From a virus: a stretch of DNA of 22,070 bases. A program made the position numbers and the translations under genes. The notes beneath the pieces were generated by a model. The model made no database searches. It was not told the DNA's origin and worked only from the letters and a program-made list of their open reading frames with translations. Positions 1,938 through 19,765 of the stretch are shown here, piece after piece. The stretch covers positions 1-22,070 of IMG/VR virus record IMGVR_UViG_3300043548_000670. One strand, written 5' to 3'. Each line of letters starts with the position of its first letter. Within the stretch, counting starts at the first letter, position 1.

Positions 1938-1949
1938 AGTCTATATTTT

Positions 1950-1957
1950 TATTTATT
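1950..1957 (-). promoter_or_regulatory. Late-promoter-like AATAAATA upstream of gp22
   Basis: The minus strand reads AATAAATA, one base from the T4 late consensus TATAAATA. Its TAAATA core ends 12 bases before the gp22 ATG. No Shine-Dalgarno is present. Confidence 0.4.
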
Positions 1958-1967
1958 CAAATTGGGT

Positions 1968-2291
1968 TTACTTTTCGTTGTTACTAATGTGATTTCTAAC
2001 TTTGTTTTTAATTTTTTCAGCTACAACTTGTTCTAAAGTAGATTGGGCGGAGGAATAATCTTTATTAGCAATATTACCAATAAATTGTTGAATGGATTTT
2101 TTAGCTTCTTCGTTCATAATAGAGTTTGTAAGTTTTTCTTCGTTCAATTTTTCACCTCTCTTTTTAAGTTCTTGTGCTATTCTTTTTAATTGTTGTCCGA
2201 AGACTGGGCTAATACCTTCATCATCTTTATGTTTATTCCACATTTTTTTTAATTCTGCTGTACTAGCATTAGTTATTTTTTTTAGATCCAT
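1968..2291 (-). CDS. Small prohead-core-like protein
   Basis: This 107-residue charged, helical protein lies between gp21 and gp22, inside the head-assembly run. The C-terminal half (IQQFIGNIANKDYSSAQSTL, then VVAEKIKNKV) resembles a short motif of small phage prohead or scaffold-associated proteins: a helix, N-K-D-Y, then a second helix ending in K-rich residues. The N-terminal half (ELKKMWNKHKDDEGISPVFG, then QQLKRIAQELKKRG) is a separate basic helical module that I do not recognise. T4 has two small core proteins, gp67 and gp68, upstream of gp21; this one is downstream. An internal core role is therefore inference from position and composition. The start ATG at 2291 lies five bases after a TAAATA element that overlaps the gp21 stop codon, and there is no convincing Shine-Dalgarno. 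Confidence 0.7.
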   Translation of the reverse strand: MDLKKITNASTAELKKMWNKHKDDEGISPVFGQQLKRIAQELKKRGEKLNEEKLTNSIMNEEAKKSIQQFIGNIANKDYSSAQSTLEQVVAEKIKNKVRNHISNNEK

Positions 2292-2295
2292 AAAA

Positions 2296-2973
2296 TTATT
2301 TACCTGTTTTGAGAGTATTAATAAAGTTCATTAATGCTTCTTTGAGAAAATTATCAGTTCCATGTTTAGGATAGGTTCTTAATGTTTCATCCAATTTTTT
2401 GTAAGCTTGCCCTGCACACTCGACAATAGAACCATCAGGGCGAATCATCCATTCTTTGGATTCCATAATAGATTCCAGCATAGCATTTTGAACAGAGGGT
2501 TGATGAACTACATCTAAGCAAATTAAATGGAAATTAGAAACATTCTTAGCTCCACCAGATTCTGTGATATTCCCCAAAGCCCTAGAAGAAATACCCATCT
2601 TAACATTGTCTTGAATCAAGGACTTTAAAAGAAGTCCCATTGGAGTATTCAATACTTGTGACTTACCCATGAAGTAATTTCCACTTTGTTTTAATTCGGT
2701 GACTAAGTGGCAAGCATTAACAGGATTAACTTCCGTAGATTGAGGATGATTCATTTCACCAATGGCTCTACGACTTTTAATCATATCATCAGAGTATCTT
2801 TCTACTTCGCGGACCATTTCATCTAAACGATAAATTCTGCCATTTTGATTTTTTTGTTCCGCCATTAAGAAAGGACCTGTGATATAAAGCTTTTGATCGC
2901 CTTGTCTATTTTTCTCCTCGATCATAAAATCAAGGCCTTCGTGGATATCTTCTACTAAGAATTTTAGTCCCAT
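2296..2973 (-). CDS. gp21: Prohead core protease, T4 gp21-like
   Basis: This 225-residue serine protease of the herpesvirus-assemblin-like fold (peptidase family S77) processes the prohead by cutting gp22, gp23 and itself. Family signatures are present: YITGPFLMAE near the N-terminus; GEMNHPQS, with the predicted catalytic His at about residue 76; and VKMGISSRALG, with the catalytic Ser at about 129-130. The downstream segment FHLICLDVVHQPSVQNAML is also typical. I chose the ATG at 2973 (MGLKFLVEDI). The longer open frame would begin 16 codons upstream with residues unlike the family, and it would cover the divergent promoter region. Upstream is a GATAAATA element but no Shine-Dalgarno. The gene is followed by the small core-like protein, gp22 and gp23, so protease, scaffold and capsid are made together. 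Its 5' end faces a divergent plus-strand membrane-protein gene. Confidence 0.93.
   Translation of the reverse strand: MGLKFLVEDIHEGLDFMIEEKNRQGDQKLYITGPFLMAEQKNQNGRIYRLDEMVREVERYSDDMIKSRRAIGEMNHPQSTEVNPVNACHLVTELKQSGNYFMGKSQVLNTPMGLLLKSLIQDNVKMGISSRALGNITESGGAKNVSNFHLICLDVVHQPSVQNAMLESIMESKEWMIRPDGSIVECAGQAYKKLDETLRTYPKHGTDNFLKEALMNFINTLKTGK
2297..2302 (-). promoter_or_regulatory. TAAATA start-associated element
   Basis: TAAATA lies exactly five bases before the ATG of the small core-like gene and is built into the end of gp21 (Lys codon plus TAA stop). Confidence 0.35.
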
Positions 2974-2984
2974 GGTTGTATTAT

Positions 2985-2992
2985 TATTTATC
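2985..2992 (-). promoter_or_regulatory. Late-promoter-like GATAAATA for gp21
   Basis: The minus strand reads GATAAATA, matching the T4 late -10 consensus at seven of eight bases. Its TAAATA core ends 11 bases before the gp21 ATG. It is one half of a divergent pair with the plus-strand site at 3011-3018. Confidence 0.5.
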
Positions 2993-3010
2993 CCATCATG
3001 TAACAAATTC

Positions 3011-3018
3011 CATAAATA
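3011..3018 (+). promoter_or_regulatory. Late-promoter-like CATAAATA for the membrane-protein gene
   Basis: The plus strand reads CATAAATA eight bases before the ATG at 3027. The same element thus also precedes the only plus-strand gene, which supports a functional signal rather than background AT-richness. Confidence 0.5.
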
Positions 3019-3026
3019 CATCTGTT

Positions 3027-3872
3027 ATGTTTACTATTATTTTAGCATTAGCTGCTTTTCTGGTTGCTGGATGTGCTGCCTACTTTTCTGTTTTGGGTAT
3101 AGCTACTTTATTTTCGGGTCATTACTTTCAGGTATTAATCATGGCAGGAGCTTTAGAAATTGGTAAATTAGTGGCTACTTCTTTTCTTTATAGATATTGG
3201 AATAAAACTATTTGGTTTTTAAAATTATATCTTATTATTGCGGTTTTGGTATTAATGGGAATAACTTCTATGGGTATCTATGGTTATCTCTCTTCAGGAT
3301 TTCAAATTAATGCTGGAAAATTAGAAACTATAGAAAAACAAGTTCTATTATTGGAAGAACAAAAAAATAGTATTGTTAATGAAATCGAACAAAATTCTAA
3401 ACGTATTGGAATTTTAAATGATTTAAGAAAGACTCAAGAACAAAGAGTTCAAGACGCAGGAAATTATAAAGCACCTAGAGAACAAGCTTATGCTGCTATC
3501 GAAAAAACAAATACAGAACTTCAAAACATCAACACCAAGAATGAACAATTAAGAGAAGAGCAATTTAAAAAAGATAATGAAATTTTAGAACTCCAAAAAC
3601 AAAATAACGAGGTGCATGATATTGGTACTTTTAAATTTGTAGCAGAGTCTTTAGGATTGCCATTAGAGACCATTGTTAAACTCTTTATTATTGTTATTGT
3701 TTGCGTATTTGATCCTTTAGCAGTTTCTTTAGTATTAGCTTATAACGTAGCTTCTCGAGGATCTATTCTCAAAGAAGAGAAAGAAGAAAATTCGACAACC
3801 GAAATAAAAGAACCTAAGAAGGAAAGTAAACCTGGATTTGTTGCTACTGGTAAAGGTTCTAATAAAGTTTAA
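3027..3872 (+). CDS. Membrane protein: three N-terminal helices, coiled coil, C-terminal helix
   Basis: This is the only gene transcribed rightward. I start it at the ATG at 3027 (MFTIILALAAFLVAG), giving 281 residues. The frame is open further upstream to a TTG near 2976, but that stretch is hydrophilic, and a CATAAATA element sits just before 3027. Visible parts are three hydrophobic helices (about residues 1-30, 34-58 and 65-92), a charged coiled coil of about 110 residues (about 98-205), a fourth helix around KLFIIVIVCVFDPLAVSLVL (about 220-245), and a Lys/Glu-rich tail. The VFDPLAVSLVLA motif looks conserved in membrane proteins of environmental T4-like phages, but I know no assigned function. 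It is divergent from gp21 and convergent with gp4, with two bases between the facing stop codons. A membrane-associated role in prohead initiation, lysis control or superinfection exclusion is possible; none is shown. Confidence 0.85.
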   Translation: MFTIILALAAFLVAGCAAYFSVLGIATLFSGHYFQVLIMAGALEIGKLVATSFLYRYWNKTIWFLKLYLIIAVLVLMGITSMGIYGYLSSGFQINAGKLETIEKQVLLLEEQKNSIVNEIEQNSKRIGILNDLRKTQEQRVQDAGNYKAPREQAYAAIEKTNTELQNINTKNEQLREEQFKKDNEILELQKQNNEVHDIGTFKFVAESLGLPLETIVKLFIIVIVCVFDPLAVSLVLAYNVASRGSILKEEKEENSTTEIKEPKKESKPGFVATGKGSNKV

Positions 3873-3874
3873 GT

Positions 3875-4330
3875 TTATTTTTGAAATAAGTGTTTCTCCG
3901 TTAAAACACAAAATTCATAAGATTTTTTATTGCACCACTCTTGGGCACTTTTCCACTTACATTGATTTTTAACATACTCAGCTTGTCTCCTCAAAAGTGA
4001 TTTAGTATTTCTTCCTGGTTTAGGGGGAAGAGTTTGGTTATGGGGTTTTATCTCTATTAGATACTTTTTAAAAGTTCCATCTTTAATTTTTAAAGTGATA
4101 TTAAAGTCTACAAAATATCTATGAAGTCTTCCTGTCATGGGATTTTGATAAGGAATAATAATAGTTTCTGAACCCCAAGAAATTACAGCTGGATTATTGT
4201 CAGCCCAACGCGCAAAGCGAAATTCGTACGACGATCTCATAATAATTGGTGTAGATCCCTTGTATTTTTCTGGGTGGTTGGGAATGAAAATACCTTGTTT
4301 GTATTTCATATTTCTTTTAGGGCGAACCAT
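3875..4330 (-). CDS. gp4: Head completion protein, T4 gp4-like (nuclease fold)
   Basis: This 151-residue protein matches T4 gp4 (also called gp50/65) in length and motifs. Examples are IPNHPEKYKGSTPIIMRSSY with EFRFARWADN, VISWGSETIIIPYQNPMTGR, then HRYFVDFNITL, and YLIEIKPHNQTLPPK. The family completes DNA-filled heads before tail joining and resembles TnsA/Holliday-resolvase-type endonucleases. The acidic and Lys residues of that fold are visible as Glu36, Asp75, Glu93 and Lys95, so the active site looks intact. The C-terminal KWKSAQEWCNKKSYEFCVLT is also typical. The start at 4330 is the usual choice; Met8 (MKYKQGIF) is an alternative. An AT-rich stretch but no Shine-Dalgarno precedes it. 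It lies after the neck gene gp13 and a small basic protein, consistent with a head-completion group. Confidence 0.92.
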   Translation of the reverse strand: MVRPKRNMKYKQGIFIPNHPEKYKGSTPIIMRSSYEFRFARWADNNPAVISWGSETIIIPYQNPMTGRLHRYFVDFNITLKIKDGTFKKYLIEIKPHNQTLPPKPGRNTKSLLRRQAEYVKNQCKWKSAQEWCNKKSYEFCVLTEKHLFQK

Positions 4331-4352
4331 AAAGAATTATTTTATGTCTATA

Positions 4353-4643
4353 CTACCAACTGCGACATGCCCAGTACCCAGCGCTTAACTTAGACTTCTT
4401 TTGATCACATTTATGACGTGATCTGAACGATTTCCTTCTAGCAGGAATATTCTTTTTAATCTTCATATTAGCATCCCCAAAGCGAATAATCTTTTCTTTA
4501 TTTCCTTCTTTAGCCTTAACCACAAATTTCTTTTTTCCGTAACCTGGTTCACCTTTACGAATGCGGCGAGGTTTATTAGCTGGCATTTTATCTTTATTAG
4601 TAGCTTCTTCTAAAATTTGTAAAACAGTATCTTGAAAATTCAT
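4353..4643 (-). CDS. Small basic conserved phage protein with C-terminal Cys/Trp motif
   Basis: This is a 96-residue, strongly basic protein. I start it at the ATG at 4643 (MNFQDTVLQILEEA); a longer frame begins at a TTG five codons upstream, but a TAAATA element sits five bases before the ATG. After a short acidic helix come KKKFVVKAKEGNKEKIIRFG, then DANMKIKKN, ARRKSFRSRHKC and finally YWACRSW. This core (VKxxEGxxEKxIRFGDxxM...RRKSFRxRHxC...YWxCxxW) recurs in small proteins of many large phages. The paired Cys with conserved His could bind metal or nucleic acid, but I know of no demonstrated function. It sits between gp13 and gp4, with 18 bases or more on each side, which suggests a structural or DNA-contacting role in head completion. 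Confidence 0.85.
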   Translation of the reverse strand: MNFQDTVLQILEEATNKDKMPANKPRRIRKGEPGYGKKKFVVKAKEGNKEKIIRFGDANMKIKKNIPARRKSFRSRHKCDQKKSKLSAGYWACRSW

Positions 4644-4648
4644 AAAAG

Positions 4649-4654
4649 TATTTA
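4649..4654 (-). promoter_or_regulatory. TAAATA start-associated element
   Basis: TAAATA lies exactly five bases before the ATG at 4643 in a short intergenic gap. It decides between the ATG and the upstream TTG start. Confidence 0.35.
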
Positions 4655-4661
4655 ACAAAAA

Positions 4662-5537
4662 TTAACCAATAAAGAATAAAGAGGGATTGGCATCTTCATA
4701 GCCTTGTTTTAATTCTACTTCTAAAGCATCTCTTTCTGTAATACCTTGTGTTAAAAAGTCTTGATAGTTTATCGTACCTCCACCAAAAAGATTAGTTGCC
4801 GGAAATTTACCTCTTACAGTAGCTACTGTGATTTTAGAAAGAGCTAATACATATCTTTGAATCCATCTTTCTTTAATAAGATCTTGAATAGGTCTTTCGA
4901 TATAACAACCTACAATACCCAGATAAGAAAAATCTGGAAAAGGTTCTGGAATAATTTTTAAAATTTGTGTTCTGGGATCAAATCTAAAATGAGGTGTTTG
5001 TGCTAAAACTTTTTTTCTAGTATCAATAAATCCTTTAAGAACTTCCCAAGTCACTAAATCGAAACCAAAATTTCCTATCATATAGGAACTGTAAATTTGA
5101 TTTGCCATAGCAGTCTCTAAAGTAAACAAAGTATTAATACCTGTAGTTTCACCGTAATCAAAAGAAAAACAGTTTAATACTTTTCTGTAAGACTCTAAAT
5201 CATAATCATAACCTCCAGATAAACCGTCTGTACTTGTTACATATAATTCTTCTGTTTGATTAATCATGGTATCTACTCTCATACCATAACCATTAATGTA
5301 TTTGGTAGAATCAAAAAGTAAATACTCCTCAGTATACCCTGCATACTTAGTAAAGTATTCAATAGCTATATCTATATTATCATAGATTTGTTCATCAGCA
5401 ATTTCTACATTGACTAAGGGTTCTCCCATCTGTCTCCGAATTCTTTTTGCTAAAGATTCGTAACTATTGGTTTTATGGTTTAATTGGGTAGACCCAACAG
5501 GACCTGCAGAAAGGGGTACATTACTAATAACATCCAT
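4662..5537 (-). CDS. gp13: Neck protein, T4 gp13-like
   Basis: This 291-residue protein is close to T4 gp13 (309). The N-terminus SLAKRIRRQMGEPLVNVEIA, then DEQIYDNIDIAIEYF, matches the gp13 pattern (L-R-R-x-G-x-P-x-I/V-N-V-E-L...D-Q...D-x-I-x-x-A). The C-terminus (ERWIQRYVLALSKITVATVR, later ITERDALEVELKQ and NPSLFFIG) follows gp13 closely, including the aromatic-rich end. gp13 and gp14 form the neck connector that seals filled heads and attaches the tail. In T4 genes 13 and 14 are adjacent; here about 6.5 kb of fibre and spike genes lies between them. The ATG at 5537 has a TAAATA element five bases upstream and no Shine-Dalgarno. Confidence 0.85.
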   Translation of the reverse strand: MDVISNVPLSAGPVGSTQLNHKTNSYESLAKRIRRQMGEPLVNVEIADEQIYDNIDIAIEYFTKYAGYTEEYLLFDSTKYINGYGMRVDTMINQTEELYVTSTDGLSGGYDYDLESYRKVLNCFSFDYGETTGINTLFTLETAMANQIYSSYMIGNFGFDLVTWEVLKGFIDTRKKVLAQTPHFRFDPRTQILKIIPEPFPDFSYLGIVGCYIERPIQDLIKERWIQRYVLALSKITVATVRGKFPATNLFGGGTINYQDFLTQGITERDALEVELKQGYEDANPSLFFIG

Positions 5538-5542
5538 GTTAT

Positions 5543-5548
5543 TATTTA
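5543..5548 (-). promoter_or_regulatory. TAAATA start-associated element of gp13
   Basis: TAAATA lies exactly five bases before the gp13 ATG, in the 23-base gap after the spike gene. Confidence 0.4.
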
Positions 5549-5560
5549 ATAAGATTTATG

Positions 5561-8500
5561 TTATATATTGGTTGTGTGCGGAATAAGCTTACTAGCTTTT
5601 TGGATGCCTTGATTAATAATCTTTTGATTGCTAACAATCTGTTGAAGTGTTCCAGTAGTACCAAATTCCAATTCATTTCTTCCGGTTGCAATTGCGTCTG
5701 AATACAACAAGATTGTTCCAGCTACATCAACTCTTGCATAGATAGTTCCAGCTAATGTAACGCCACTTACAATATCTCCATATAAAAATCTGTAGATAGT
5801 TCCCATTGGGGTGTCTCCGGGATTAGTGTTATTATCTCTATTAGCTTCATCCGGGAAAAAGGTTATAGATGTTATACCACCAAGTATCAATTCGCTGTTA
5901 AGATTTGCTGCTCTTATTTTAACGTCATCCGAATAAGTTGTTCCGTTTTGATCAATAATATTTCCATTAGAAACAAATAGAATGTCTTCGCTTAATCCAG
6001 TACATTTTAATGTTAATAAAGTTGAGCCATTGTATGTTAGTATACTTGCAGCTTCTGCATCAAGTGTAACGTTTTTGTTAATTGTCAACGAACCAAATGC
6101 TTTACTGTAAAACGGAATATAATCAATACCCGAAGATGTTGTAGTCCAGTAATTTAAATAATTGTAAATTTTTTCTGAAGTATTTAAATCCCCATAACCA
6201 GCAACTGTAGCAGGATCGGATGTAACAAAATTGTCAGGTACATAATTAGGATTAATTTCAATTGTTGCACCAACATTACCATCAACAACAAACGAACCTT
6301 GAACATACTGATAGCCATACCTAGCTATATGATATGTCCATGTACCAGTAGCATTTGATGGTAATACAATTGTACCATCAGTATTTTGATAATACTGTTT
6401 TGTTCCTGTATCATCATATATTGCTATATATCCGCCATTTAAAGTTACATTTAAAATGGTTGGAATAAAGTCAACAATCTCTGCATCTGAACCATTAGCT
6501 ATTGTAGAATTAGTTTTCTTAATTGTAACAATTCCAGTGCCATCGTTTTGTACAGTATCCATTGTACAATCCGTGTACTCAATTGTTGTGTTAGAATCAG
6601 TATTATATGCAAGAGTTCCTTCCATATAAATACCAGACAAACTTACAGGTGTTGCTTGGAATACATTCCCGTAGATGTCAATTTCTCCGATTGTAGATCC
6701 AGAAGAAAGATAAATGTTTCCAGTTGTCTTTAATCCGATAAAATTACTACCACTGGATAATAGAGCAGTTTTAATTGTTAACGTACTAGATGCATCCACA
6801 TACGAGAATGCTTCAGATACCGAATTATCAATAACAATATTTTTAGAACCAAAGTCTAATATGTTTCCGTCTTGGGTATATAAATCAGTATATGCAGTTA
6901 ATGACGGATTTGTAACAGACCAATAATTTGATGCATCATAAAGATAATCAAGATTATTAACAGTTGAAATAGCAGATACTTGATTCTCTGTTAACGTTGT
7001 TAAAACGTTAACCGTTCTATATGGATTTTTATCAAAAACAAACCCATAATGCCTCGCGTCAGGGCAGAGCGGATCAAAGTACAAACCATCTAAATATGTT
7101 TTAGCAGCAAGGGAAGTAGTTTGGGCATAAAACGTCATTGTTATATTACCATCGTATACTGGTGTCACAGTCAAATCAAATTTCTGCCATTCATTTGAAA
7201 CTGGAGAACAACTAAATGTTTGTGTTACAGATGTTGTATTAATATCATCCGTAAATTGTATATACGGTAAATTAGTACCACCATATGTAGAATCATACTT
7301 GATGTACCCTACATATCTTTGTGGTGTATTTGCTCTTGCTGGTATGAGTTCAGTATAGTAGTAAGGAAAAACTGTATATACTCCTGATGCGATAGGCTTT
7401 ACTGCAACAGCTTCATAGGAAGCAAGTCCTCTATTTCTATTGGAGTAGTTTCCACTTAAATTATAATATGAAGAGAATCTTCTAGAAGCTAATTTGTCAT
7501 TATTTGGATATATAACATTACAAGCAAAATCTTTAGAAGAAGCAAGGTTAGTGTTAAGCCCGTAATTAATTGCTGATAAAGAGCAATTTCTAAATGTATA
7601 TACTCCAGGGGTTCCTTCAGAAACAGTATGCAAAGAACCGTTAGACCCGTTTGTAGCTTGAAAATGAATACCGGTGTTTTCAATTGTCGTTAAAAAGTTT
7701 CCCGTTCCTGGTAGTGATATAAACGGTGATGCTGCATTGCATTTTACAATACAATTGTTTATTTTTGTTGTAGACGCAGTGGAGTTAGACAAGTTGAAAC
7801 GCGAAGAACAAAAAATTCTACTATTAGTTAAAGTTAAAAATAACCCACCGCTAAAAAATCTACTTGTTTGATAAACAACGGAATCAGATATATTTACAGA
7901 ACCTCCTGTACGCAACGATATAACCTCAGTAGCGTTTGAAGTCCCTAAGTAAATTGCTATATTTTTATACTTAGACGGATATGTAACACCATATAATTGA
8001 TTAAATATCCAAGTAGAAATAGTTCCTGCTGTGGGAGAATAAAACGAAACGTTTTCTAATTCTGGGCTTCTTCTAGCATATGTACCGTCTGTAATATTAA
8101 AAATAGCTCCGTTAGCACCTACACCGATAAACCCAGTAAAACTACAGTCCTTTAATTGGTAAAGAGAATTATTACCATTAGGTTGTATTATTATACCAAA
8201 TGAGTTACATGGTGTACTAGAATTTTCTACATAATATCCAGGCTTAATTGTTACATTGCTAGACATATTACCAACATAATTTCCAGCTGGGAAATTAGTT
8301 GTTGTTCCGGTGTTTATTGTTACTACGTTTCCGTTTATACCAGTAATAGTTCGTATATCATTAACAGGAGCTGATCCTCCTCCAGATATTTTAAGTTGAG
8401 GGATTTCTAATATAAGCATATCGCCTATTTCCCAATTAGTAGCATCAGCAACAGAAAGTGTAGTTGTTCCTGTTATATGGCTTGCTGTTAGTGTTGTATT

Positions 8501-9037: not shown

Positions 9038-9038
9038 G

Positions 9039-9512: not shown

Positions 9513-9516
9513 ATAT

Positions 9517-9651
9517 TCAATCTATCCAACTTTGTCTGTCATCCCACACTCCATTGTCATTCCAAAATCCTGTAGCTAAAATCCATTCGATTTGTTTTAC
9601 AACAAATCTTCCACAAGCTTGAATTTTACCTAAAATTTTTATTTGGTACAT
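9517..9651 (-). CDS. 44-residue Trp-rich small protein
   Basis: The ATG at 9651 opens a 45-codon frame ending in TGA, filling almost all of the 159-base gap between two fibre genes. The product starts MYQIKILGKIQACGRFVVKQ and ends WILATGFWNDNGVWDDRQSWID. That C-terminal pattern of FWND-x-GVW-x-D-x-x-x-W-I-D is familiar from very short proteins and from C-termini near fibre genes in phages, and the same W-spacing resembles the start of the G8 spike. ACATAAATA lies seven bases before the ATG. The motif and complete gap-filling support a real gene. The function is unknown; a minor virion or fibre-associated protein is an inference. Confidence 0.65.
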   Translation of the reverse strand: MYQIKILGKIQACGRFVVKQIEWILATGFWNDNGVWDDRQSWID

Positions 9652-9658
9652 GACATAT

Positions 9659-9666
9659 TATTTATG
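9659..9666 (-). promoter_or_regulatory. Late-promoter-like CATAAATA before the 44-residue ORF
   Basis: The minus strand reads CATAAATA, with its TAAATA core ending seven bases before the ATG at 9651. It lies in the 20-base gap after the 293-residue fibre gene. Confidence 0.4.
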
Positions 9667-9671
9667 TATCT

Positions 9672-10553: not shown

Positions 10554-10555
10554 GT

Positions 10556-10747
10556 TTAACTATACTTTGCCGTTTTTTTATAATTCTTTTTTATTTGTTT
10601 TATTTTTGGTTGTTTTTTAACAATTTCAGCTGGTGTAAATGTATCCTTTGTGTTTTGAAGATGGTTATTAATTGTTTTTGTATTTTCAAAATCTCCGAAC
10701 AAATGTTTAATTATTTTAGTAAACCATTTTTTAATTGATTCGAACAT
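10556..10747 (-). CDS. Small basic protein, unknown function
   Basis: This 63-residue protein is rich in Lys and Asn. It begins with an amphipathic aromatic/basic helix (MFESIKKWFTKIIKHLFGDF) and ends in a very basic tail (KKQPKIKQIKKNYKKTAKYS). I recognise no family. The helix could lie on a membrane or bind a partner, and the tail could contact nucleic acid. TAAATA occurs five bases before the ATG, and the next fibre gene starts two bases after the stop, so it looks like the first gene of the fibre sub-operon that follows the terminator at 10771-10803. Confidence 0.6.
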   Translation of the reverse strand: MFESIKKWFTKIIKHLFGDFENTKTINNHLQNTKDTFTPAEIVKKQPKIKQIKKNYKKTAKYS

Positions 10748-10752
10748 AAGAT

Positions 10753-10760
10753 TATTTATT
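10753..10760 (-). promoter_or_regulatory. Late-promoter-like AATAAATA before the 63-residue gene
   Basis: AATAAATA on the minus strand has its TAAATA core exactly five bases before the ATG at 10747. It follows a terminator, so a promoter is expected here to restart transcription into the fibre/spike genes. Confidence 0.45.
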
Positions 10761-10770: not shown

Positions 10771-10803
10771 AAAAAACCCAGGCTCTTTCGAACCTGGGTT
10801 TTT
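10771..10803 (-). terminator. Rho-independent terminator after the 388-residue fibre gene
   Basis: An 11-base-pair perfect inverted repeat (AAAAACCCAGG / CCTGGGTTTTT) flanks a 10-base loop. On the minus strand the stem is followed by TTTTTTG-TTTT. It lies 20 bases beyond the stop of the 388-residue gene. The A/T ends could let it work on both strands. Confidence 0.9.
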
Positions 10804-11989: not shown

Positions 11990-12021
11990 ATTTTTATAAG
12001 TGGTGTATATTGCTTTTGAAG

Positions 12022-12029: not shown

Positions 12030-12075
12030 CATTATATACTTATGGTTCGTCTAGTTACTTTTTGTCAACTTATTT

Positions 12076-12948
12076 TTAGAAAGTACCGCCATCTAACGGG
12101 GCATCATCTGGTGTTTCAATTTCTTTTTCAATGGCAGGGTAGTCTTCTTTAACTTTTTTCAAGAATTCTAAAGCTTCTACTAAATCACCACCAGATCCTA
12201 CATTAGGCACTACAGTAGTTTTAGTAGTAATAGGATTGAAAACAGGAACACCATCATAACCTCCATAATAACCATAATCTTTTGAAACATCTGTAACATC
12301 ATGATCAAAGATGCATTTTTGTGTTCCGTCAACACTATCAGGATAAGGCACACTTAACTCAACCATATTAGTACTATCGAACATTCTTCCATATTCTTCA
12401 GAATCATTAATTTGTAGATTTTCGGGTTCAGCAAGAACACCAGGTTCTGAAGAGTATTCCCAACGTTTACATTTAATAACCCAAATATAATGACCCATTA
12501 AATGGTTAGCATTAAATTGAAGATTTTGGTCATCTCTTTCAGTAATTTCGTAAATAGGTGCTCCCCTGCCTCCAGGTCGATCTCCGGCACCACCATATTC
12601 TTTTAATTCAATTAAATCACCAGCTTTAGGTTCTTTACCTGTACCAAAAATTTCATAATAAGAAGAAATATGAATAACTGCTGTCATATCACAATCTGCC
12701 ATAATGCCGAACTTAGAAAGCATAATAGCATCATTGGTAATATCGGTTAACATGACCACAGGACCTGAACTAAGAAATATCGATGTAGGATCTTCTCCGT
12801 ATAAAAAATTATGCGATGTTAAAGTATAACCGTGAGTGTAATAGGTAGTTTCAACACCATAATGTTCAATTTGTTCTCTCCAGTAATTGGACATGAGATA
12901 ACGTTCATTATCGTTGATTCCTTTATTAAGATAACGGACTTTATCCAT
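12076..12948 (-). CDS. gp14: Neck protein, T4 gp14-like
   Basis: This 290-residue protein (T4 gp14 is 256) shows the family pattern. YGVETTYYTHGYTLTSHNFL and YGEDPTSIF match the region before the conserved F/Y-G-E-D. LSKFGIMADCDMT follows, and FGTGKEPKAGDLIELKEYGG leads to APIYEITERDDQNLQF, the most characteristic gp14 segment (G-x-E-P-K-x-G-D-L-I then a strand ending E-I). gp14 joins gp13 at the portal after packaging to complete the head for tail attachment. The C-terminus ends in LDGGTF, echoing the IDGGVF end of the next gene product. The start is three bases after the stop of the nucleotidyltransferase-like gene, without Shine-Dalgarno, suggesting translational coupling. Confidence 0.87.
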   Translation of the reverse strand: MDKVRYLNKGINDNERYLMSNYWREQIEHYGVETTYYTHGYTLTSHNFLYGEDPTSIFLSSGPVVMLTDITNDAIMLSKFGIMADCDMTAVIHISSYYEIFGTGKEPKAGDLIELKEYGGAGDRPGGRGAPIYEITERDDQNLQFNANHLMGHYIWVIKCKRWEYSSEPGVLAEPENLQINDSEEYGRMFDSTNMVELSVPYPDSVDGTQKCIFDHDVTDVSKDYGYYGGYDGVPVFNPITTKTTVVPNVGSGGDLVEALEFLKKVKEDYPAIEKEIETPDDAPLDGGTF

Positions 12949-12951
12949 GGA

Positions 12952-13524
12952 TTAAACGCTTTCTATTTTTTTTAATCCCTTAGTTAAGGTTTGTTTGTTT
13001 TTTACTTTTGTTTTAACATCAGAAAGATGTTCAATACTTTTTTTAGATTCTTGTAAAAAATCTGGAAGCTTTTCCCATTTATTATTCCAGGGTCGATAAG
13101 CTCCATTTAATTTTTCAATTTCTATTTTGCGAATAGTTGGTATATAAATTAATGGGTGTCTGGTACCTACTACCAATTTCCCGTTAATCTCTTTAATAGT
13201 TTGAAGGATTCTTTCTTTTAATACATCATCTAATTGTGTTGTATTAATTTGTACCTTGATAACCATGTCACAGGTTTCAGAAGCATTCTTATTAAAAATA
13301 GGACCTGTTAAAATATAATCAAAAACCCGGGTTTGTGTAAATGCAGATTCTACTCTGTTGATTTCTTCTATACCCATTAAAATTTGTGACCTTACTGAAG
13401 GTAGTAATATAGGATTAGCTCCTGATTCAGGAAAATAAAAAATTTGAGGATCTAAAGAATTAGGAGCTATATTTTTATTTTCTTTGATATAAGCTGTCTT
13501 ATATACATTATCAAATAATCGCAT
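12952..13524 (-). CDS. Nucleotidyltransferase-fold protein with degenerate active site
   Basis: This 190-residue protein has the layout of the nucleotidyltransferases found in many T4-like phage structural regions: a helix (LLPSVRSQILMGIEEI), then YILTGPIFNKNASETCDMVI where the fold has hG-[GS]-x(n)-D-h-[DE], then TRHPLIYIPTIRKIEIEKLN and GAYRPWNNKWEKLP, which match the typical R-H, V-E-L-Y and G-x-Y-x-x-x-N-N-x-W elements. Here Gly-Ser is Gly-Pro and the second acidic residue is Val (Asp86, Val88), so catalysis is doubtful. A Lys-rich tail follows. I choose the second ATG at 13524 over the one at 13530, because TAAATA lies exactly five bases before it and overlaps the first. The gene precedes gp14. 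The fold assignment is by motif inspection only. Confidence 0.65.
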   Translation of the reverse strand: MRLFDNVYKTAYIKENKNIAPNSLDPQIFYFPESGANPILLPSVRSQILMGIEEINRVESAFTQTRVFDYILTGPIFNKNASETCDMVIKVQINTTQLDDVLKERILQTIKEINGKLVVGTRHPLIYIPTIRKIEIEKLNGAYRPWNNKWEKLPDFLQESKKSIEHLSDVKTKVKNKQTLTKGLKKIESV

Positions 13525-13529
13525 AAACA

Positions 13530-13537
13530 TATTTATG
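13530..13537 (-). promoter_or_regulatory. Late-promoter-like CATAAATA before the nucleotidyltransferase-like gene
   Basis: CATAAATA on the minus strand has its TAAATA core five bases before the ATG at 13524. It lies just downstream of the terminator at 13552-13573, where a new transcript start is needed. Confidence 0.5.
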
Positions 13538-13551
13538 GGGTTTTAAAAACG

Positions 13552-13573
13552 AAAAAAGCCCCTTACGGGGCTT
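13552..13573 (-). terminator. Rho-independent terminator after the acidic protein gene
   Basis: A perfect 7-base-pair stem (AAGCCCC / GGGGCTT) has a 4-base loop. On the minus strand a T-run follows directly. It lies 26 bases beyond the stop of the 252-residue gene and insulates the upstream fibre run from the gp14 transcript. Confidence 0.92.
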
Positions 13574-13598
13574 AGTTCGAAAAATATGTCAAATTTTC

Positions 13599-14357
13599 TT
13601 ACTTGAAGAAATCACCAGTATTGATGGATGATTTAACTTTATAAGATCCTTTGGATTGAAGAGATCCTTTTTTATCTCCTAATTCTTTAGGTTCTGGAGA
13701 ATCTTTTAATTCCCCTTTGTGAACTGAACCACCTGAGGTTTTAAGTTTGCTAGCAACCTTCATGTTACCTTTAGACATCATTTCAGTACCGGCTTTCATG
13801 TTATGAAGAGCATGACCTTTGTCTTCCATGCTAACAGATTCTTCATAAGGCTCTTCTTCGTTTTCTCCGCCTTCAGATTCTTCGCTCTCATTTTCTAATT
13901 CATTTTCATCGGAATCTTCATTAGAAAGATTATCAAGAATGCTTTGAAGGCGTTCTACGACATCGCGAAGATCAGAAAGAAGATCACCTTGTTCTTCTTC
14001 GTCAGATTCAATTTCGTCGACCATAGCTTCTGGTTCTGTAGGAACTTCAACGTCCATTTCCATACCAGGTCCTTCCATTTCTTGTTCGTTAATAGTAGCT
14101 TTGAAAAGTTTTTCAAAAGCTCCTTCATAAGATTGTGTTGATTCTTTCATGGTTTTTGCTTTAGCTCCATCAGAGTACTTTTTATTTTCTTCTGGAGTTT
14201 CAATATCTTTTTTGGACTTTTCTGGTCCTTGATTGCCGACTAAACCAGCTTTGCCGATTTTGGATTCCAATTCTTTAGCTCCTTTAACAACAGGAGTTTT
14301 TTCTTCATTAAGAAGAACTTTTTGAGAATAGATATCTGATAGAGGATTATTTTTCAT
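13599..14357 (-). CDS. Acidic low-complexity protein, possible internal head or structural protein
   Basis: This 252-residue hydrophilic protein has no predicted membrane segment. Residues 1-75 are Lys/Glu-rich (KGAKELESKIGKAGLVGNQG). Residues about 95-175 are extremely acidic, with Glu/Asp runs interrupted by one amphipathic helix (LLSDLRDVVERLQSILDNLS). Residues about 185-252 are basic, Ser/Gly/Lys-rich and end in NTGDFFK. The acidic centre recalls small prohead core proteins of T4-like phages, but I do not recognise the sequence, and length and position differ. It may be an internal core protein, an assembly chaperone or a substrate of the prohead protease (several L-x-E sites are present). 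TAAATA lies five bases before the ATG and a strong terminator follows the gene. Confidence 0.75.
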   Translation of the reverse strand: MKNNPLSDIYSQKVLLNEEKTPVVKGAKELESKIGKAGLVGNQGPEKSKKDIETPEENKKYSDGAKAKTMKESTQSYEGAFEKLFKATINEQEMEGPGMEMDVEVPTEPEAMVDEIESDEEEQGDLLSDLRDVVERLQSILDNLSNEDSDENELENESEESEGGENEEEPYEESVSMEDKGHALHNMKAGTEMMSKGNMKVASKLKTSGGSVHKGELKDSPEPKELGDKKGSLQSKGSYKVKSSINTGDFFK

Positions 14358-14362
14358 TGTTA

Positions 14363-14370
14363 TATTTATT
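14363..14370 (-). promoter_or_regulatory. Late-promoter-like AATAAATA before the acidic protein gene
   Basis: AATAAATA has its TAAATA core five bases before the ATG at 14357. A second TAAATAA-type run lies a few bases further upstream in the same gap. Confidence 0.4.
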
Positions 14371-14390
14371 TATCTTATTTAGGTTATTTT

Positions 14391-16037
14391 TTAACTGTTA
14401 ACGAAACATTTTTGGATAACGTAAAAACTATCTGCATAATGTGTTAAAACCCCCGTGCTCCAATTTCCATTGTAGCCTACCCCATAAAGTTCTCCTTTAT
14501 CAGTGACAGCTATCAAATTATTGACATCACTATAACCAAAAGGACACATATCAACAAATTTAATATTGTCATTTTTAATAAGTTTAGTAAATTGATTTCT
14601 TTGAGAAGCATCATTTACCCCTAAAGCCCCGTGGGCGTTATAACCCGTTCCGAAAATTTCTCCATCAGAATTTAATATCCACAACGCACCTGCACCAGAC
14701 CAACCTTTACCCATGATTTTAACAATATTTTGCGGATTACCAAAAGGAGTGACTGGGGAATTTTGTTGAGTAGTATTATTAGTTCCTAATTGACCATAAC
14801 CGTTATACCCCCACACTTTTAAGGTATTATCTAATTGTCTGACGCAAACACTTAAAGCATTGCTAGAAAAAATAGTCATACTAGCAACAGAAATTCCATT
14901 CACTTTTGTAAAGGCATTTCTTTGTGCAACATCCCCTAAACCTAATTGACCGTAAGCATTATATCCACAAGACCAAAGTTCATTATTTCTTATCAAATAA
15001 GAAGTTCCTTGACTATTCCAACCTCTAGCCAAAATATAATCTGCTTTTAAAGGACTCCCCACAGAATAAATTTGTTTAAAGACGTTAGTATTTGTAGTAT
15101 TATTTTGACCTAATTGACCATAACCGTTGTAACCAGCTGAATAAACGTTATCGTCGCTGTCAATAACAAAACTATAAGAATAAGACCCACCGTCTTCTAC
15201 AGCTGAGCATTTTTTAATAACTTTGCCTGCTATATCTCCTCCGTTTATTCTTACTGGAGAATTTTGTTGGGTGGTATTTCCGTTACCTAATTGACCAAAA
15301 CCATTGTAACCCCATCCATACAATTCTCCAGAAGAATTAATAGCAAAACAATGTACATAAGCACCGTCTGTGTTACCGCAATCAAAATAAACAACATTAC
15401 TTAAATTGATTTTAACCCAAACAGATCTATTAGAGGTATTGCCTATTCCTAGTTGTCCGTAACCATTATAACCAGTAGAATAAAGATTTCCGAAGTTAGT
15501 TAAAATATATGCAGACGTCGCACCACCACCAGTGAGATAGTGTTCCACAACACGTTCTCCTGGAAGTAAATTAGAAATTGTCAATTTTTGAAATCCTTTA
15601 GACATGTAGTTGCTAGAATTTCCAGCTGTGCCCATACCAAAACCATAACCATTACTATAACCACAAGCATATAAATCACCTTCTTGAGATTGGAAAAAAG
15701 AAGAATTATAAAAAGTAGAAGCTGTTTTATCGCCTAAATTCCATTTAAATTTTTTAAAAGCTCCAGGTTTTGTTTCTTGAATAATTTGTGTAGAACTTAA
15801 AGCAAATGAAGGTGATAAAAATTCCTGGGTAATAGAAGAAAGTTTTACAGAAGCCGTAAGATTTCGAGTATTTTGATTATAAGACAAGTCTATAGTATCT
15901 GTATCTGTAATACTAATAGTTTGTGAAGACAAATTTTGAACTGCTGTGTCTAAATTGTCGTAGTTAGTGTTGATGGTGAGTAAAGAATCTCCCATGCATT
16001 CTGAATCTGGTATAGCTGTTGTAAATATTCTTGGCAT
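14391..16037 (-). CDS. RCC1-type beta-propeller fibre protein
   Basis: This 548-residue protein has an N-terminal adapter (residues 9-37, with SECMGDSLLTINTNYDNLDT) shared with the two preceding genes. A beta-rich linker follows (ITDTDTIDLSYNQNTRNLTA). Residues about 110-545 form an RCC1-like propeller with eight GY-centred motifs, such as GNLYSTGYNGYGQLGIGNTS, GELYGWGYNGFGQLGNG, DNVYSAGYNGYGQLG and GEIFGTGYNAHGALGVN, at residues 126, 189, 243, 302, 358, 414, 465 and 521. The spacing of 51-63 residues is the normal RCC1 blade length. The first and last motifs are imperfect and may close one blade. The propeller is probably a ligand-binding head on a tail fibre or baseplate protein. The start follows one base after the preceding TAA stop (TAATATG). 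Fibre assignment comes from the adapter and context; RCC1 assignment is strong. Confidence 0.88.
   Translation of the reverse strand: MPRIFTTAIPDSECMGDSLLTINTNYDNLDTAVQNLSSQTISITDTDTIDLSYNQNTRNLTASVKLSSITQEFLSPSFALSSTQIIQETKPGAFKKFKWNLGDKTASTFYNSSFFQSQEGDLYACGYSNGYGFGMGTAGNSSNYMSKGFQKLTISNLLPGERVVEHYLTGGGATSAYILTNFGNLYSTGYNGYGQLGIGNTSNRSVWVKINLSNVVYFDCGNTDGAYVHCFAINSSGELYGWGYNGFGQLGNGNTTQQNSPVRINGGDIAGKVIKKCSAVEDGGSYSYSFVIDSDDNVYSAGYNGYGQLGQNNTTNTNVFKQIYSVGSPLKADYILARGWNSQGTSYLIRNNELWSCGYNAYGQLGLGDVAQRNAFTKVNGISVASMTIFSSNALSVCVRQLDNTLKVWGYNGYGQLGTNNTTQQNSPVTPFGNPQNIVKIMGKGWSGAGALWILNSDGEIFGTGYNAHGALGVNDASQRNQFTKLIKNDNIKFVDMCPFGYSDVNNLIAVTDKGELYGVGYNGNWSTGVLTHYADSFYVIQKCFVNS
14403..15690 (-). 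repeat. RCC1 blade repeats
   Basis: Eight imperfect repeats of about 150-190 bases encode the propeller blades. The central blades share near-identical DNA coding for GYNGYGQLG, seen around 14790, 14945, 15112, 15290 and 15452. That similarity could allow blade exchange by recombination. Confidence 0.85.
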
Positions 16038-16038
16038 A

Positions 16039-16542
16039 TTAAGTATTAAAAATGGTTACGGAGACGTAATCTGGGTTAACAAAAACGCCATCCTTATTAC
16101 GTATATTTATCACAATTGACGAAGAAGTTACCTCAGTGGTGGGTTGTGTCCATACATAGTCTGATACAGCTGATAATTGATAACAAGTTCCTATAGTTGC
16201 GTAATTGGTATCATTAAATGGAGGATCAAAAGAGAGTCTATAAACTCCTGTATCTAGAGAAGATACTTCTTTTACTCTTAAAGAATTTATTATATTTACA
16301 GGATCAGTTGTACGGTCAAAAGTTACTAAAGCTTTTGGTATTTTAAATAAAACAGCAGATAAAGAATTAATTCTTGAGTGCACTTCATTGATTTGTATTT
16401 GTTTAGTATTAAGTTCTTCGGTTGTAAAACAATTAGCTTCTTTTAATAATTGAAAATTGGTATTAATTGTAGCCAAAGAAAGACCTAAACATTCATCTAA
16501 ATCAATAGTAGCAATAGCTTCTTTCTCAATACAAATTCTCAT
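16039..16542 (-). CDS. Short tail-fibre protein with shared N-terminal adapter (copy 2)
   Basis: This 167-residue protein has an N-terminal adapter (DECLGLSLATINTNFQLLKE) followed by a short helix, and then a fibre domain. The fibre domain carries the pattern common in phage fibres: INSLRVKEVSSLDTGVYRLS, FDPPFNDTNYATIG, and VNPDYVSVTIFN at the end (generic form: S-F-N-V-x-S-V...G-x-Y-x-I-x-F...N-Y-x-x-x-G...D-P-x-x-V-x-V-x-I-F). The neighbouring 174-residue protein has the same two-part layout, so the pair looks like an old tandem duplication. It starts at TAATATG after the neighbour's stop, with no Shine-Dalgarno. A virion fibre role is well supported; the receptor is unknown. Confidence 0.82.
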   Translation of the reverse strand: MRICIEKEAIATIDLDECLGLSLATINTNFQLLKEANCFTTEELNTKQIQINEVHSRINSLSAVLFKIPKALVTFDRTTDPVNIINSLRVKEVSSLDTGVYRLSFDPPFNDTNYATIGTCYQLSAVSDYVWTQPTTEVTSSSIVINIRNKDGVFVNPDYVSVTIFNT

Positions 16543-16543
16543 A

Positions 16544-17068
16544 TTAATAAAATACTACAGACACAAAATCCGGATCCACCGTAGAACCTGTAGTAGAGGA
16601 TTGAATTCGTACTTCAGCATAAGCAGAAGTTATGTTGTAAGGTTGAAACCAAGTAAATGTATTAGTATTTGTATTTATTTTTTCAGTGCTTGTTCCAACA
16701 ACCGCATATCTATTATTTGGAAAATTATTTGTAAAAATAATACGATAATCACCTATTGCTTTTTTATAAACGGATAAAATATTAAAACTATTATAAATAT
16801 ACCTGTCAGTAAAGAAAGTAGAAACCACGTTATTAGTGTCTCTATTTCCACTAAATTTACACCAAGCTTTAGCAGATCCAGGAACAATTACAGAAGATAG
16901 TTCCGTAATTTTTGTATTTAAATCGTCTATCTGATTATCTAAAATTTCTATTCTTGAATCATTATCACAGGCAGCTTCTCTCAAATTTAAAAAATTATCA
17001 TTAATAACAATCAATGAATTTCCTATGCATTGAGTCTTTTGAATTTCGTATATTACTGGACAAGACAT
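16544..17068 (-). CDS. Short tail-fibre protein with shared N-terminal adapter (copy 1)
   Basis: This 174-residue protein has an N-terminal adapter (KTQCIGNSLIVINDNFLNLR) followed by a heptad-like helix (SRIEILDNQIDDLNTKITEL) suited to trimerisation. SAKAWCKFSGNRDTN leads into a fibre domain with YIYNSFNILSVYKKAIGDYR, then IIFTNNFPNNRYAVVG, and VDPDFVSVVFY at the C-terminus. It is paralogous to the next gene (167 residues) but well diverged. It is the first of three successive genes with the Cys-x-Gly-x-Ser-Leu...Ile-Asn-x-Asn-(Phe/Tyr) adapter. A TAAATA element lies nine bases before the ATG. Confidence 0.82.
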   Translation of the reverse strand: MSCPVIYEIQKTQCIGNSLIVINDNFLNLREAACDNDSRIEILDNQIDDLNTKITELSSVIVPGSAKAWCKFSGNRDTNNVVSTFFTDRYIYNSFNILSVYKKAIGDYRIIFTNNFPNNRYAVVGTSTEKINTNTNTFTWFQPYNITSAYAEVRIQSSTTGSTVDPDFVSVVFY

Positions 17069-17077
17069 TGTAAAATA

Positions 17078-17083
17078 TATTTA
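17078..17083 (-). promoter_or_regulatory. TAAATA element before the first adapter-fibre gene
   Basis: TAAATA lies nine bases before the ATG at 17068, in the 18-base gap following the 888-residue gene. Confidence 0.3.
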
Positions 17084-17086
17084 GGA

Positions 17087-19753
17087 TCAATCCTTACAAT
17101 TGGGATTAAAATAATCAATGAGGGTATTAAAATTAATCCACAAATACCCTAAAATTCTATTAATAGCAGTCGAAGTAACAATTTCATTTTGCCCTAAAAT
17201 TATTTGATCTTTAGTATAGACAGGTCCTTTATAAGCTTTACAACCTTGTTGTGTGAATAAAAGAGAATTTCTAAACATTTCAATATTATCCCAAAGTCTT
17301 TGAAATGATTTATTATAAACCCAATTTTGAATATATTCTTCTTTGTGTATATAAAGGTCTTCCAATTCCCAATAAGAATCTGGTAGTTTTCCTTTTAATT
17401 GAATTTGTGTCATTAAATCACAATACTTCATTATTTTATCATTAGTGGTAATAAGAAGATTACGATACTCATCATGAAACACATCGGTAATATTTGAAAC
17501 GTTGTTTTTTTCTTTAATGATGTAACCCGCAAAGACACCATTTCTGAAGAATTTAAGAACTTGTTTATTTAATGCTAGATAAATTACTTCTCGATTATAC
17601 GAAGAATTAATTCTTTTAGGCGTTATTTCAGAAACGTAATTTGAATAATCATAAGAGAATAAAAATTCTCCTTCATAAGAATAAACTCTTATCTCTTTAG
17701 TCGTTAATATGTGTAATTGTTTTTGACTGTCCACACAAATAGATAGGGGAGCATTCGTTTTTAAAGAATCATCTTTGATAGTCTTTAACCAGGTTCCTGT
17801 ACTAGAATAGTGCTTAACACAATAATTTCCGGTGTCTGCTATCCAGACATTATCCAATTGATCTATGTGAATATCTTGAGGATTTAAAAATTTATAATTA
17901 CTGGAACCCACGCCACCCCAATTAACAAATAATCTCCAATCTCCTCCTCTGCCCCCTTCTTGAAAATTATAAACAGCAACTTGTGAAAGAATACTGTCTA
18001 AAATAAAAATTTTATTTTCAGAATTTAATCTAATTCCTTCTATACTAGAAAAATCTAAAACATCATCAAAAGAGGATCTGCTGCTATAAAAAGTAGCATC
18101 TTTATTAGAGGATAAAAGACGGACCTGGGTTTTTTGAGCTAGATAAATTTTGTTTTCTTTAGATGCAACCCCATAATAGACACATCTACTTTGAATAGCA
18201 GGTACTGCAAATTCTGGATAATAATCATTAATACCTGGAATATTGACATTCCAGGTACCTGTATCACAGATAATAAATTGACTACTAGGACATAATTCAA
18301 ATCTCCATTTTTTAGAATATTCTGTGCCGGCTTTGGTTTCTGCCCATGTGATAATATTATTAGCGACATCACTTCGACGAGAATACCAATTCCACTCAAC
18401 ACAGTCTGTGCCTGTTAAAGAACCTCTTTCTGTGCAATTGATAGAAACTAAACTACCACTACATTCTTGATCTTCCCAAGTTCCATAAGGAACAAATTCC
18501 CCAGTATCCACTACACTATCCGCAGATAAAAGTTTTCTCCAGGTAATTGAATAATCTAAAGAAGTATTTAAACAATCCGCATCTTCCCAAGTCCAGACAG
18601 GTGTAGATGTGACTCCATTAACTATGGTGGGTAAAGTACCCAAATAACCAAAATATTCTGAATAGGTGTCACTGTATATTTTTGATCTAGAATTGAGATA
18701 TTCTAAATTCTCATAAAATTGTTTAAAACAAACATTAATATTATCTTCTACAGCCCAATCATTGGATCCTATAGTAGGTTGATTCTGGTAAGGTAAAATT
18801 AATGGATCTGACGCAATTCGATATTCTCTAGGTGACACTTCATCGTAATTACTGAAAACCCTAATAAGATCTGGATAAGAGGTGGTGAAATAAGGTTCTC
18901 TGCCGTAATTGACGTAAGCCGTAATTTTTATAGTTTTAAAACCTATAGTATCATAAGTGGTAGAGAAGTATTTTTGATTAATTTGATTTCCCGACAAATA
19001 TAAGGTCTTCCCATCATCAAAGTCTATGTTTAATGCTGTGATGATATAACTGTTGGTTATTAAATTTTCTAAACTGACATTTACCCCAGTTAAGACAAAC
19101 CGATTTGGTGTGTAAATGTCTAATTGAGGAGGAGCTATTGCAGTAAAACTGTAGGTTTCAGAAATGAGTGTTTCTGCTGTTGTTAGTGGGATGCTAAAAA
19201 GATCGAGACAGGTTACTGATAATAGAGCATTTAAGGTAAAAATGGTATCCTGATAAGGATCTGCAGTGTAAATTTGTTGATCTTTACTCAACCTTAATTC
19301 AAAATTAAATGAATTAGATACCGATAAAGGTATTGTTTGTTGCACCGACCAATTTGTGGTAGATAACGTCCAAAAAATAGAAGCGGCTGAACATTCAAGA
19401 AAAAGAGGATTGAACAATTCTGATGAAAGAGGTAATTCGTAAGTCCATTTTTTGGAGTAGGTACCTGGATTGTCACTATTAAGAGAACCTGCACATAAAT
19501 TGCATTGAAGAGTCGACCAAGATGATGGGTATACTGTTTGTGTGGAACTTAAAGCGTCAATCGCAGATGGTGTAGATTCAAATGTTGACCACTTCCAATT
19601 AAGACCATATTTACCATAACATTTATCTAATACAGTATCTCCTCCTGTAAGACCTGCAATTAAACTGGATGTATAAGAATTTCTACTACCATTAGTGGGT
19701 AGGTAAATATTTGAGGGTACTCCCGGATTAAAACTGTAAGCTGTAAACGCCAT
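17087..19753 (-). CDS. Large PKD/NHL-propeller virion protein
   Basis: This is an 888-residue multi-domain protein. Residues about 210-300 look like a PKD-type Ig fold (ALNIDFDDGKTLYLSGNQIN, then YFSTTYDTIGFKTIKITAYV). Residues about 525-785 form an NHL-like propeller (FLNPQDIHIDQLDNVWIADT, then GNYCVKHYSSTGTWLKTIKD; NAPLSICVDSQKQLHIL; ISNITDVFHDEYRNLLI-like blades). A C-terminal helical part (QIILGQNEIVTSTAINRILG) follows. YSKKW-x-(Y/F)-EL-x-x-SS occurs twice, near residues 98-111 and 479-492, suggesting duplication of a flanking domain. The protein is Cys- and Trp-rich for a phage protein. It lies directly after the LamG/propeller gene and before the adapter-fibre trio, so it is probably a baseplate- or fibre-network component. 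The domain calls are from pattern inspection. Confidence 0.78.
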   Translation of the reverse strand: MAFTAYSFNPGVPSNIYLPTNGSRNSYTSSLIAGLTGGDTVLDKCYGKYGLNWKWSTFESTPSAIDALSSTQTVYPSSWSTLQCNLCAGSLNSDNPGTYSKKWTYELPLSSELFNPLFLECSAASIFWTLSTTNWSVQQTIPLSVSNSFNFELRLSKDQQIYTADPYQDTIFTLNALLSVTCLDLFSIPLTTAETLISETYSFTAIAPPQLDIYTPNRFVLTGVNVSLENLITNSYIITALNIDFDDGKTLYLSGNQINQKYFSTTYDTIGFKTIKITAYVNYGREPYFTTSYPDLIRVFSNYDEVSPREYRIASDPLILPYQNQPTIGSNDWAVEDNINVCFKQFYENLEYLNSRSKIYSDTYSEYFGYLGTLPTIVNGVTSTPVWTWEDADCLNTSLDYSITWRKLLSADSVVDTGEFVPYGTWEDQECSGSLVSINCTERGSLTGTDCVEWNWYSRRSDVANNIITWAETKAGTEYSKKWRFELCPSSQFIICDTGTWNVNIPGINDYYPEFAVPAIQSRCVYYGVASKENKIYLAQKTQVRLLSSNKDATFYSSRSSFDDVLDFSSIEGIRLNSENKIFILDSILSQVAVYNFQEGGRGGDWRLFVNWGGVGSSNYKFLNPQDIHIDQLDNVWIADTGNYCVKHYSSTGTWLKTIKDDSLKTNAPLSICVDSQKQLHILTTKEIRVYSYEGEFLFSYDYSNYVSEITPKRINSSYNREVIYLALNKQVLKFFRNGVFAGYIIKEKNNVSNITDVFHDEYRNLLITTNDKIMKYCDLMTQIQLKGKLPDSYWELEDLYIHKEEYIQNWVYNKSFQRLWDNIEMFRNSLLFTQQGCKAYKGPVYTKDQIILGQNEIVTSTAINRILGYLWINFNTLIDYFNPNCKD

Positions 19754-19759
19754 TTTTAT

Positions 19760-19765
19760 TATTTA
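19760..19765 (-). promoter_or_regulatory. TAAATA element before the PKD/NHL gene
   Basis: TAAATA lies six bases before the ATG at 19753, in the 17-base gap after the LamG/propeller gene. Confidence 0.35.

Follow-up and report, generated by a model that had tools for sequence, protein, structure and literature searches.

Many late genes of the study clade, which is a large group of uncultured T4-like phages from aquatic sources, carry the hexamer TAAATA a few bases before their start codons, and it is likely that their late messages are leaderless or nearly so and arise from TAAATA late promoters. The positions of the boxes, the promoter classes, the start-codon rule, the conservation and the gp55 and gp45 genes reported below are shown. 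The RNA 5' ends, the recognition by gp55 and the entry of the ribosome are inferred.

The window, that is the whole stretch of DNA analysed, is an IMG/VR fragment of 22,070 bases from a T4-like phage. It carries gp23, gp22, gp21, gp4, gp13 and gp14-like genes, between which tail-fibre genes lie. It is one contig among 17 analysed, the other 16 being related contigs of 22-140 kb that were taken whole. The 17 contigs contain about 975 ORFs, and the gene starts are the output of a simple ORF caller. As some contigs overlap (G001 with G002, G019 with G021), a redundancy-collapsed set of upstream regions matters. The gp23 of the window matched PF07068 (1.9e-50) and PHROG 138, which satisfied the criterion of a gp23-type major capsid protein for T4-like phages. 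The nearest annotated phages showed only about 36% identity to this protein, its close environmental relatives were many, and the gp23 tree placed all 17 contigs in one group separate from T4, cyanophages and pelagiphages. The relatives also possess T4 core genes (gp43, uvsX, gp41, gp17, gp18 and gp20, together with gp55 and gp45), meeting the core-set criterion, the window itself being a fragment. A search for late sigma and coactivator genes, suggested in an earlier reading of the bare sequence (the sequence-only reading), gave gp55 homologues in G012, G015 and G020 and gp45 homologues in G015 and G020; a gp33 homologue was not detected by phmmer with two reference queries. The window's own subclade comprises G000, G001, G002, G003, G005, G008, G009 and G013, and the remaining contigs are termed sister contigs. 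G012 and G016 group with the window subclade by gp23 but resemble the sister contigs and were counted among them.

The sequence-only reading had listed twelve gaps between TAAATA and ATG in the window, the gap being the number of bases separating the two, and all twelve values were found to be right on rechecking. The boxes and the one exception are as follows.

1..924, cut by the window end, minus strand: gp23 major capsid gene, the exception, with the SD leader AAAGGAG and no box in front
1950..1955, minus strand: late box TAAATA at gap 12, before the gp22-like scaffold gene (start 1937)
2297..2302, minus strand: late box at gap 5, before ORF 1968-2291 (107 aa)
2985..2990, minus strand: late box at gap 11, before the gp21 protease gene (start 2973, MGLK...)
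3013..3018, plus strand: late box at gap 8, before ORF 3027-3872 and forming a back-to-back pair with the gp21 box
4649..4654, minus strand: late box at gap 5, before ORF 4353-4643 (96 aa)
5543..5548, minus strand: late box at gap 5, before the gp13-like gene (4662-5537)
9659..9664, minus strand: late box at gap 7, before a doubtful 44-codon ORF (9517-9651)
10753..10758, minus strand: late box at gap 5, before ORF 10556-10747
13530..13535, minus strand: late box at gap 5, before ORF 12952-13524
14363..14368, minus strand: late box at gap 5, before ORF 13599-14357, with extra copies at 14367 and 14376
17078..17083, minus strand: late box at gap 9, before the tail-fibre-like ORF 16544-17068
19760..19765, minus strand: late box at gap 6, before ORF 17087-19753 (888 aa, NHL repeat)

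The hexamer as such was not over-represented in the window (45 copies vs 50.7 expected); it is the position which is unusual. Dinucleotide shuffling placed a box at gap 5-15 before about 4% of genes (34.9/926), at which rate about 0.8 boxed genes would be expected among the 21 of the window, compared with 12 observed. The comparison with shuffled upstream regions, which the sequence-only reading had asked for genome-wide, was run on the clade and revealed strong enrichment at gaps 5-15. For 926 distinct upstream regions, 136 boxes were observed at gap 5-6 vs 6.5 +/- 2.5 after shuffling, and gaps 0-4 were depleted (4 vs 14.5). The counts over the roughly 975 ORFs of the clade were 0 at gap 4, 75 at gap 5, 70 at gap 6 and 36 at gap 7, and then fell off up to a gap of about 15. 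Once similar upstream regions had been merged, 814 remained, and the corresponding values were 0, 67, 53 and 30, with a background of about 1 per position. A count that took every TAAATA and asked at which distances an open frame follows gave the same edge at gap 5, which does not depend on the gene caller. The claim of a fixed short distance held only in part, being strict (5-6) in the sister contigs; the window's subclade keeps the hard edge at 5 and has its gaps evenly spread over 5-12. The consensus of the box is (A/T)TAAATA, or WTAAATA, and the earlier naming of it as the T4-type box TATAAATA failed as wording. This T4 8-mer has 3 copies in the window, all on the plus strand and none preceding the twelve boxed starts, and the 8-mer criterion was not met. 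At nine sites T4 itself carries A where T would be expected at -13 (PMC2988020).

The late box of T4 is 8 bp long and begins at -13 (PMC2988020), and therefore TAAATA corresponds to -11 to -6, and with a gap of 5 the +1 position coincides with the A of ATG. The clade upstream regions also showed a TATAAT peak at gap 6, at which the sigma-70 geometry likewise puts +1 on the ATG. TTGA peaked at -34 (53 vs 4.3 shuffled), TTGA and TANNNT were found together 30 times vs 0.2 shuffled, and when genes were aligned on TTGA alone, TATAAT emerged at exactly -12 to -7. Two promoter types of unlike internal geometry, each offset so that +1 falls on the start codon, are thus inferred from sequence alone. 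The criterion of a -10 element at a fixed short distance putting +1 on the start codon was met, with a late gap of 5 and a sigma-70 gap of 6.

The TAAATA box was present before 56/119 late core genes vs 2/41 early genes (p = 2e-7), satisfying the criterion of restriction to late genes, and early-type promoters were present before 13/41 early vs 0/119 late core genes (p = 4e-9). The early genes are without TAAATA and have TTGA/TATAAT promoters of the sigma-70 type; in the sister contigs their -10 box is separated from the ATG by 6 bases. This early signal is weak in the window's subclade, and a generic sigma-70 scan of the window gave no excess over shuffles. About half of the annotated late genes and 63% of the annotated early genes start without a recognisable promoter.

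The start codons of the sister contigs were tabulated by register. TAAATA at gap 5 was followed by ATG in 64 cases, GTG in 28, TTG in 1 and CTG in 0, meeting the criterion of ATG and GTG only. The 28 GTG starts at gap 5 compare with only 2 at gap 6, and in the TTGA-N18-TANNNT class of the same contigs GTG was found 8 times at gap 6 and 0-1 times at neighbouring gaps. GTG starts are rare in the window's own subclade. The gp15 gene of several relatives has a GTG start at the box register and no Met for 51-127 residues. Mycobacterial leaderless genes have been found experimentally to carry RTG at +1, without TTG (PMC4633059), and the usage in the sister contigs matches this leaderless rule.

The claim that Shine-Dalgarno (SD) sequences are nearly absent held clade-wide. 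SD-like 4-mers in the 814 collapsed regions numbered 59 near the starts vs 69 at 40 bases further upstream, which is no excess, and only 6/223 boxes at gap 5-9 had such a 4-mer before the start, in accordance with the no-SD criterion for leaderless genes. The identification of gp23 as the one gene with a strong SD (start 924, AAAGGAG) also held, and most relatives retain an SD-like sequence there. The gp23 leader (window 925-968) contains SD-like GGAG/AAGGA, to which most relatives add GGTCGA and some a hairpin-like GAGGG...CCCCTGA; this leader is possibly an RNA element for the capsid gene. An Rfam search of the window gave no match.

The occurrence of the box varied with the gene neighbour. 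Of the genes that directly follow another one (spacing of at most 3), 9/280 (3%) had a box, compared with 30-48% for other genes with a known upstream neighbour and 48% for genes whose neighbour is on the other strand. The box and the short gap persist before orthologues at 34-45% protein identity, the flanks being different. The gp22-like box is kept before the orthologue in 9 relatives, with the nearest copy at gaps 6-11, and the gp21 box also occurs in the relatives examined, some at only 40-45% protein identity; an ATG upstream of the gp21 start, at 3021, is not conserved. The back-to-back pair (2985-3018) is conserved in G001, G002, G003, G005, G008 and G013, with TAAGTA in G009. The box of ORF 4353-4643 has an identical gap in G001 (39% identity) and G020 (34% identity). 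The gp13-like gene has TAAATA at gap 5-7 in most relatives and TAAGTA in G001 and G012, and ORF 12952-13524 has TAAATA at gap 5-6 in four relatives and TAAGTA at gap 5 in a fifth. Terminator-like stems were located at 10772-10803, 13 bases ahead of the box 10753..10758, and at 13556-13573, shortly before the box 13530..13535; clade-wide, terminators before boxed genes showed only a weak trend (8/275 vs 6/539, p = 0.08).

Two proteins of the window may be mentioned separately. The 281-aa product of ORF 3027-3872 is without a family match; its gene, located between gp21 and gp4 but oriented oppositely, is conserved in seven relatives, mostly with the back-to-back late promoter pair. An RCC1-repeat protein (PF25390, PF00415), for which a beta-propeller is expected, is encoded at window 14391-16037 among the tail-fibre genes.

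The late promoters of T4 (gp55/gp33/gp45) share with the clade an AT-rich box at -10, the lack of a -35 element and a location before virion genes on both strands. T4 has 0 genes with TAAATA at gap 5-7 and 23 at 16-35, of which 21/23 have an SD in between, whereas the study clade has 181 genes at gap 5-7 and 38 at 16-35, its box lying 5-15 bases from the ATG without SD and its T at -13 not being conserved. Cyanophages Syn19 and P-HM1 have TAAATA mostly 16-35 upstream (20 and 18 genes). The pelagiphages HTVC008M (NC_020484) and Mosig (MT647606) are bimodal: the box lies either at gap 5, with neither leader nor SD, or some 18-28 bases upstream, where an SD accompanies it. In HTVC008M a gap of exactly 5 occurs in 11 genes, one of 6-7 in none and one of 16-35 in 6 (5 of them with SD), Mosig has 6 at gap 5 and 17 at 16-35 (15/17 with SD), and the methylophage Melnitz has 3 at gap 5 and 20 at 16-35. 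These three phages resemble the clade in those of their late genes, a minority, in which TAAATA stands at a gap of exactly 5 and SD is absent, but differ in the SD-like sequence at most genes (54-67%) and in the many boxes 16-35 upstream. Compared with these phages, the short form is the rule in the clade and reaches early genes in the sister contigs. Mycobacterial leaderless genes (PMC4633059) likewise show a -10 element abutting an ATG/GTG at +1, no SD and purine-first starts, but they are a minority in a cellular genome and were measured by RNA-seq, whereas those of the clade belong to lytic phages and are predicted.

The Far-T4 phages (PMC4360716; Rhodothermus phage RM378) are, like the clade, aquatic, uncultured and gp23-bearing, and low GC and queuosine genes have been reported for them (PMC7198788), as in the study clade. 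The Far-T4 paper (PMC4360716) has 0 occurrences of 'promoter' or 'Shine' and no promoter or leader analysis. RM378 showed no gap-5 peak, and its candidacy as closest relative was unsupported, as RM378 proteins were no closer to the clade than to Syn19, T4 and Mosig in a comparison without the Lake Pavin contigs. Published in-silico prediction links Far-T4 phages to Flavobacteriales (PMC7198788, PMC13037479). A host from this order is possible for the clade and would fit the absence of SD. The early promoters, however, have the TTGA/TATAAT form rather than TANNTTTG, and this Bacteroidetes-type -7 element was not enriched. Bacterial genomes scanned with gp23 yielded no relative, a QueC scan for the host gave only distant gammaproteobacterial and other matches (32-39%), and no WhiB was found. 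The QueC homologues of the relatives, at L084:18765-19535 (G020) and L097:4038-4784 (G015), suggest 7-deazaguanine chemistry (DNA or tRNA modification). G012 has seventeen tRNA genes (L093:10993-18257), the majority forming one cluster.

In the proposed mechanism, TAAATA would be the core sequence of a late promoter of the T4 type, (A/T)TAAATA, which ends at -6 and would be read by host RNA polymerase with the phage gp55 late sigma and the clamp, the recognition by gp55 being inferred. Transcription would start on the start codon or 0-10 bases before it, and because the RNA start is so placed, the late mRNAs would be leaderless or nearly so; they would be translated without SD, probably by ribosomes recognising the 5'-terminal RUG. 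The early genes of the sister contigs would follow the same rule via the host sigma-70-type holoenzyme. Promoterless genes often abut the preceding gene and would probably be translated by coupling, or be read from upstream, and gp23 would retain its SD leader. The sequence-only reading had proposed that many internal promoters give late messages with no leader or almost none, and this is supported by the sequence evidence, no 5' end having been mapped. Strict leaderlessness in the window's subclade was not shown, as many leaders there would be 1-7 bases; leaders of 0-7 bases, again an inference from sequence alone, is the accurate wording for it.

The same reading had offered a non-SD ribosome signal as the alternative, and this does poorly. 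TAAATA would then be an A/U-rich ribosome site in the mRNA with transcripts beginning further upstream, which is considered very unlikely. The absence of SD, the frequent A at -6 relative to ATG and the in-silico prediction of Far-T4 phages on Flavobacteriales (PMC7198788, PMC13037479) speak for it, the membership of the clade in Far-T4 not being shown. Flavobacteriales are without SD, and the Kozak-like bacterial starts known from Flavobacterium work resemble the A at -6. Against it, the motif is class-specific (56/119 late vs 2/41 early genes), the -35 element of early genes stands at a fixed distance from the ATG and is unreadable by a ribosome, the edge at gap 5 is hard and one-sided, GTG is nearly confined to the exact register, abutting genes are without the motif, and the pelagiphage box lies at gap 5 without SD or at about 18-28 with SD.

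Chance occurrence of TAAATA, from an AT-rich background and genes ending in TAA, is favoured by a GC of about 34% and by the lack of overall excess in the window. It is practically ruled out by the 136 boxes vs 6.5 +/- 2.5 in composition-matched shuffles, by the box at 48% of genes with an opposite-strand neighbour and by the absence of boxes at gaps 5-7 in the equally AT-rich T4; the upstream stop codon is overlapped by only 34/311 boxes, and such overlap was rejected as the source of the motif. It may also be held that the late promoters are true but that the RNA start varies or upstream transcripts are processed, most translated messages having leaders. The gaps of 5-12 in the window's subclade, the many boxless genes that must be read from upstream and the conserved leader on gp23 support this view. 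It is nevertheless thought highly improbable in the face of the strict register and the RTG rule in the sister contigs, the two terminator-like stems directly before boxed genes in the window, and the promoter pair 2985-3018, which drives divergent genes and has no same-strand upstream gene for direct read-in.

A bolder form of the preferred leaderless reading, in which the early and late programmes of the whole clade run on leaderless mRNAs and an SD leader remains essentially only for the capsid gene, is judged rather unlikely. If true, it would imply a host dominated by leaderless initiation, or a phage shifting ribosomes toward leaderless messages, possibly via the phage bS21 protein present in two relatives. 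The bS21 genes lie between gp41 and gp32 (G020:84906-85037 and G015:48822-48959) and could bear on SD-less translation.

A search of the literature, which was not exhaustive, yielded no paper on leaderless late mRNAs of T4-like phages. Leaderless translation is usually regarded as ancestral or marginal. Gene callers expecting an SD will misplace starts in this clade, and the promoter-start geometry is a signature by which uncultured T4-like phages can be sorted and their hosts narrowed down. The mixed arrangement in isolated pelagiphages makes the idea testable now. If the leaderless reading is true, it would illustrate how late promoters of the T4 type can shift relative to their genes, leaderless translation would be the main mode of the phage and not a curiosity, and the clade would offer a natural system where leaderless initiation carries the lytic programme, with both promoter classes set on the start codon.
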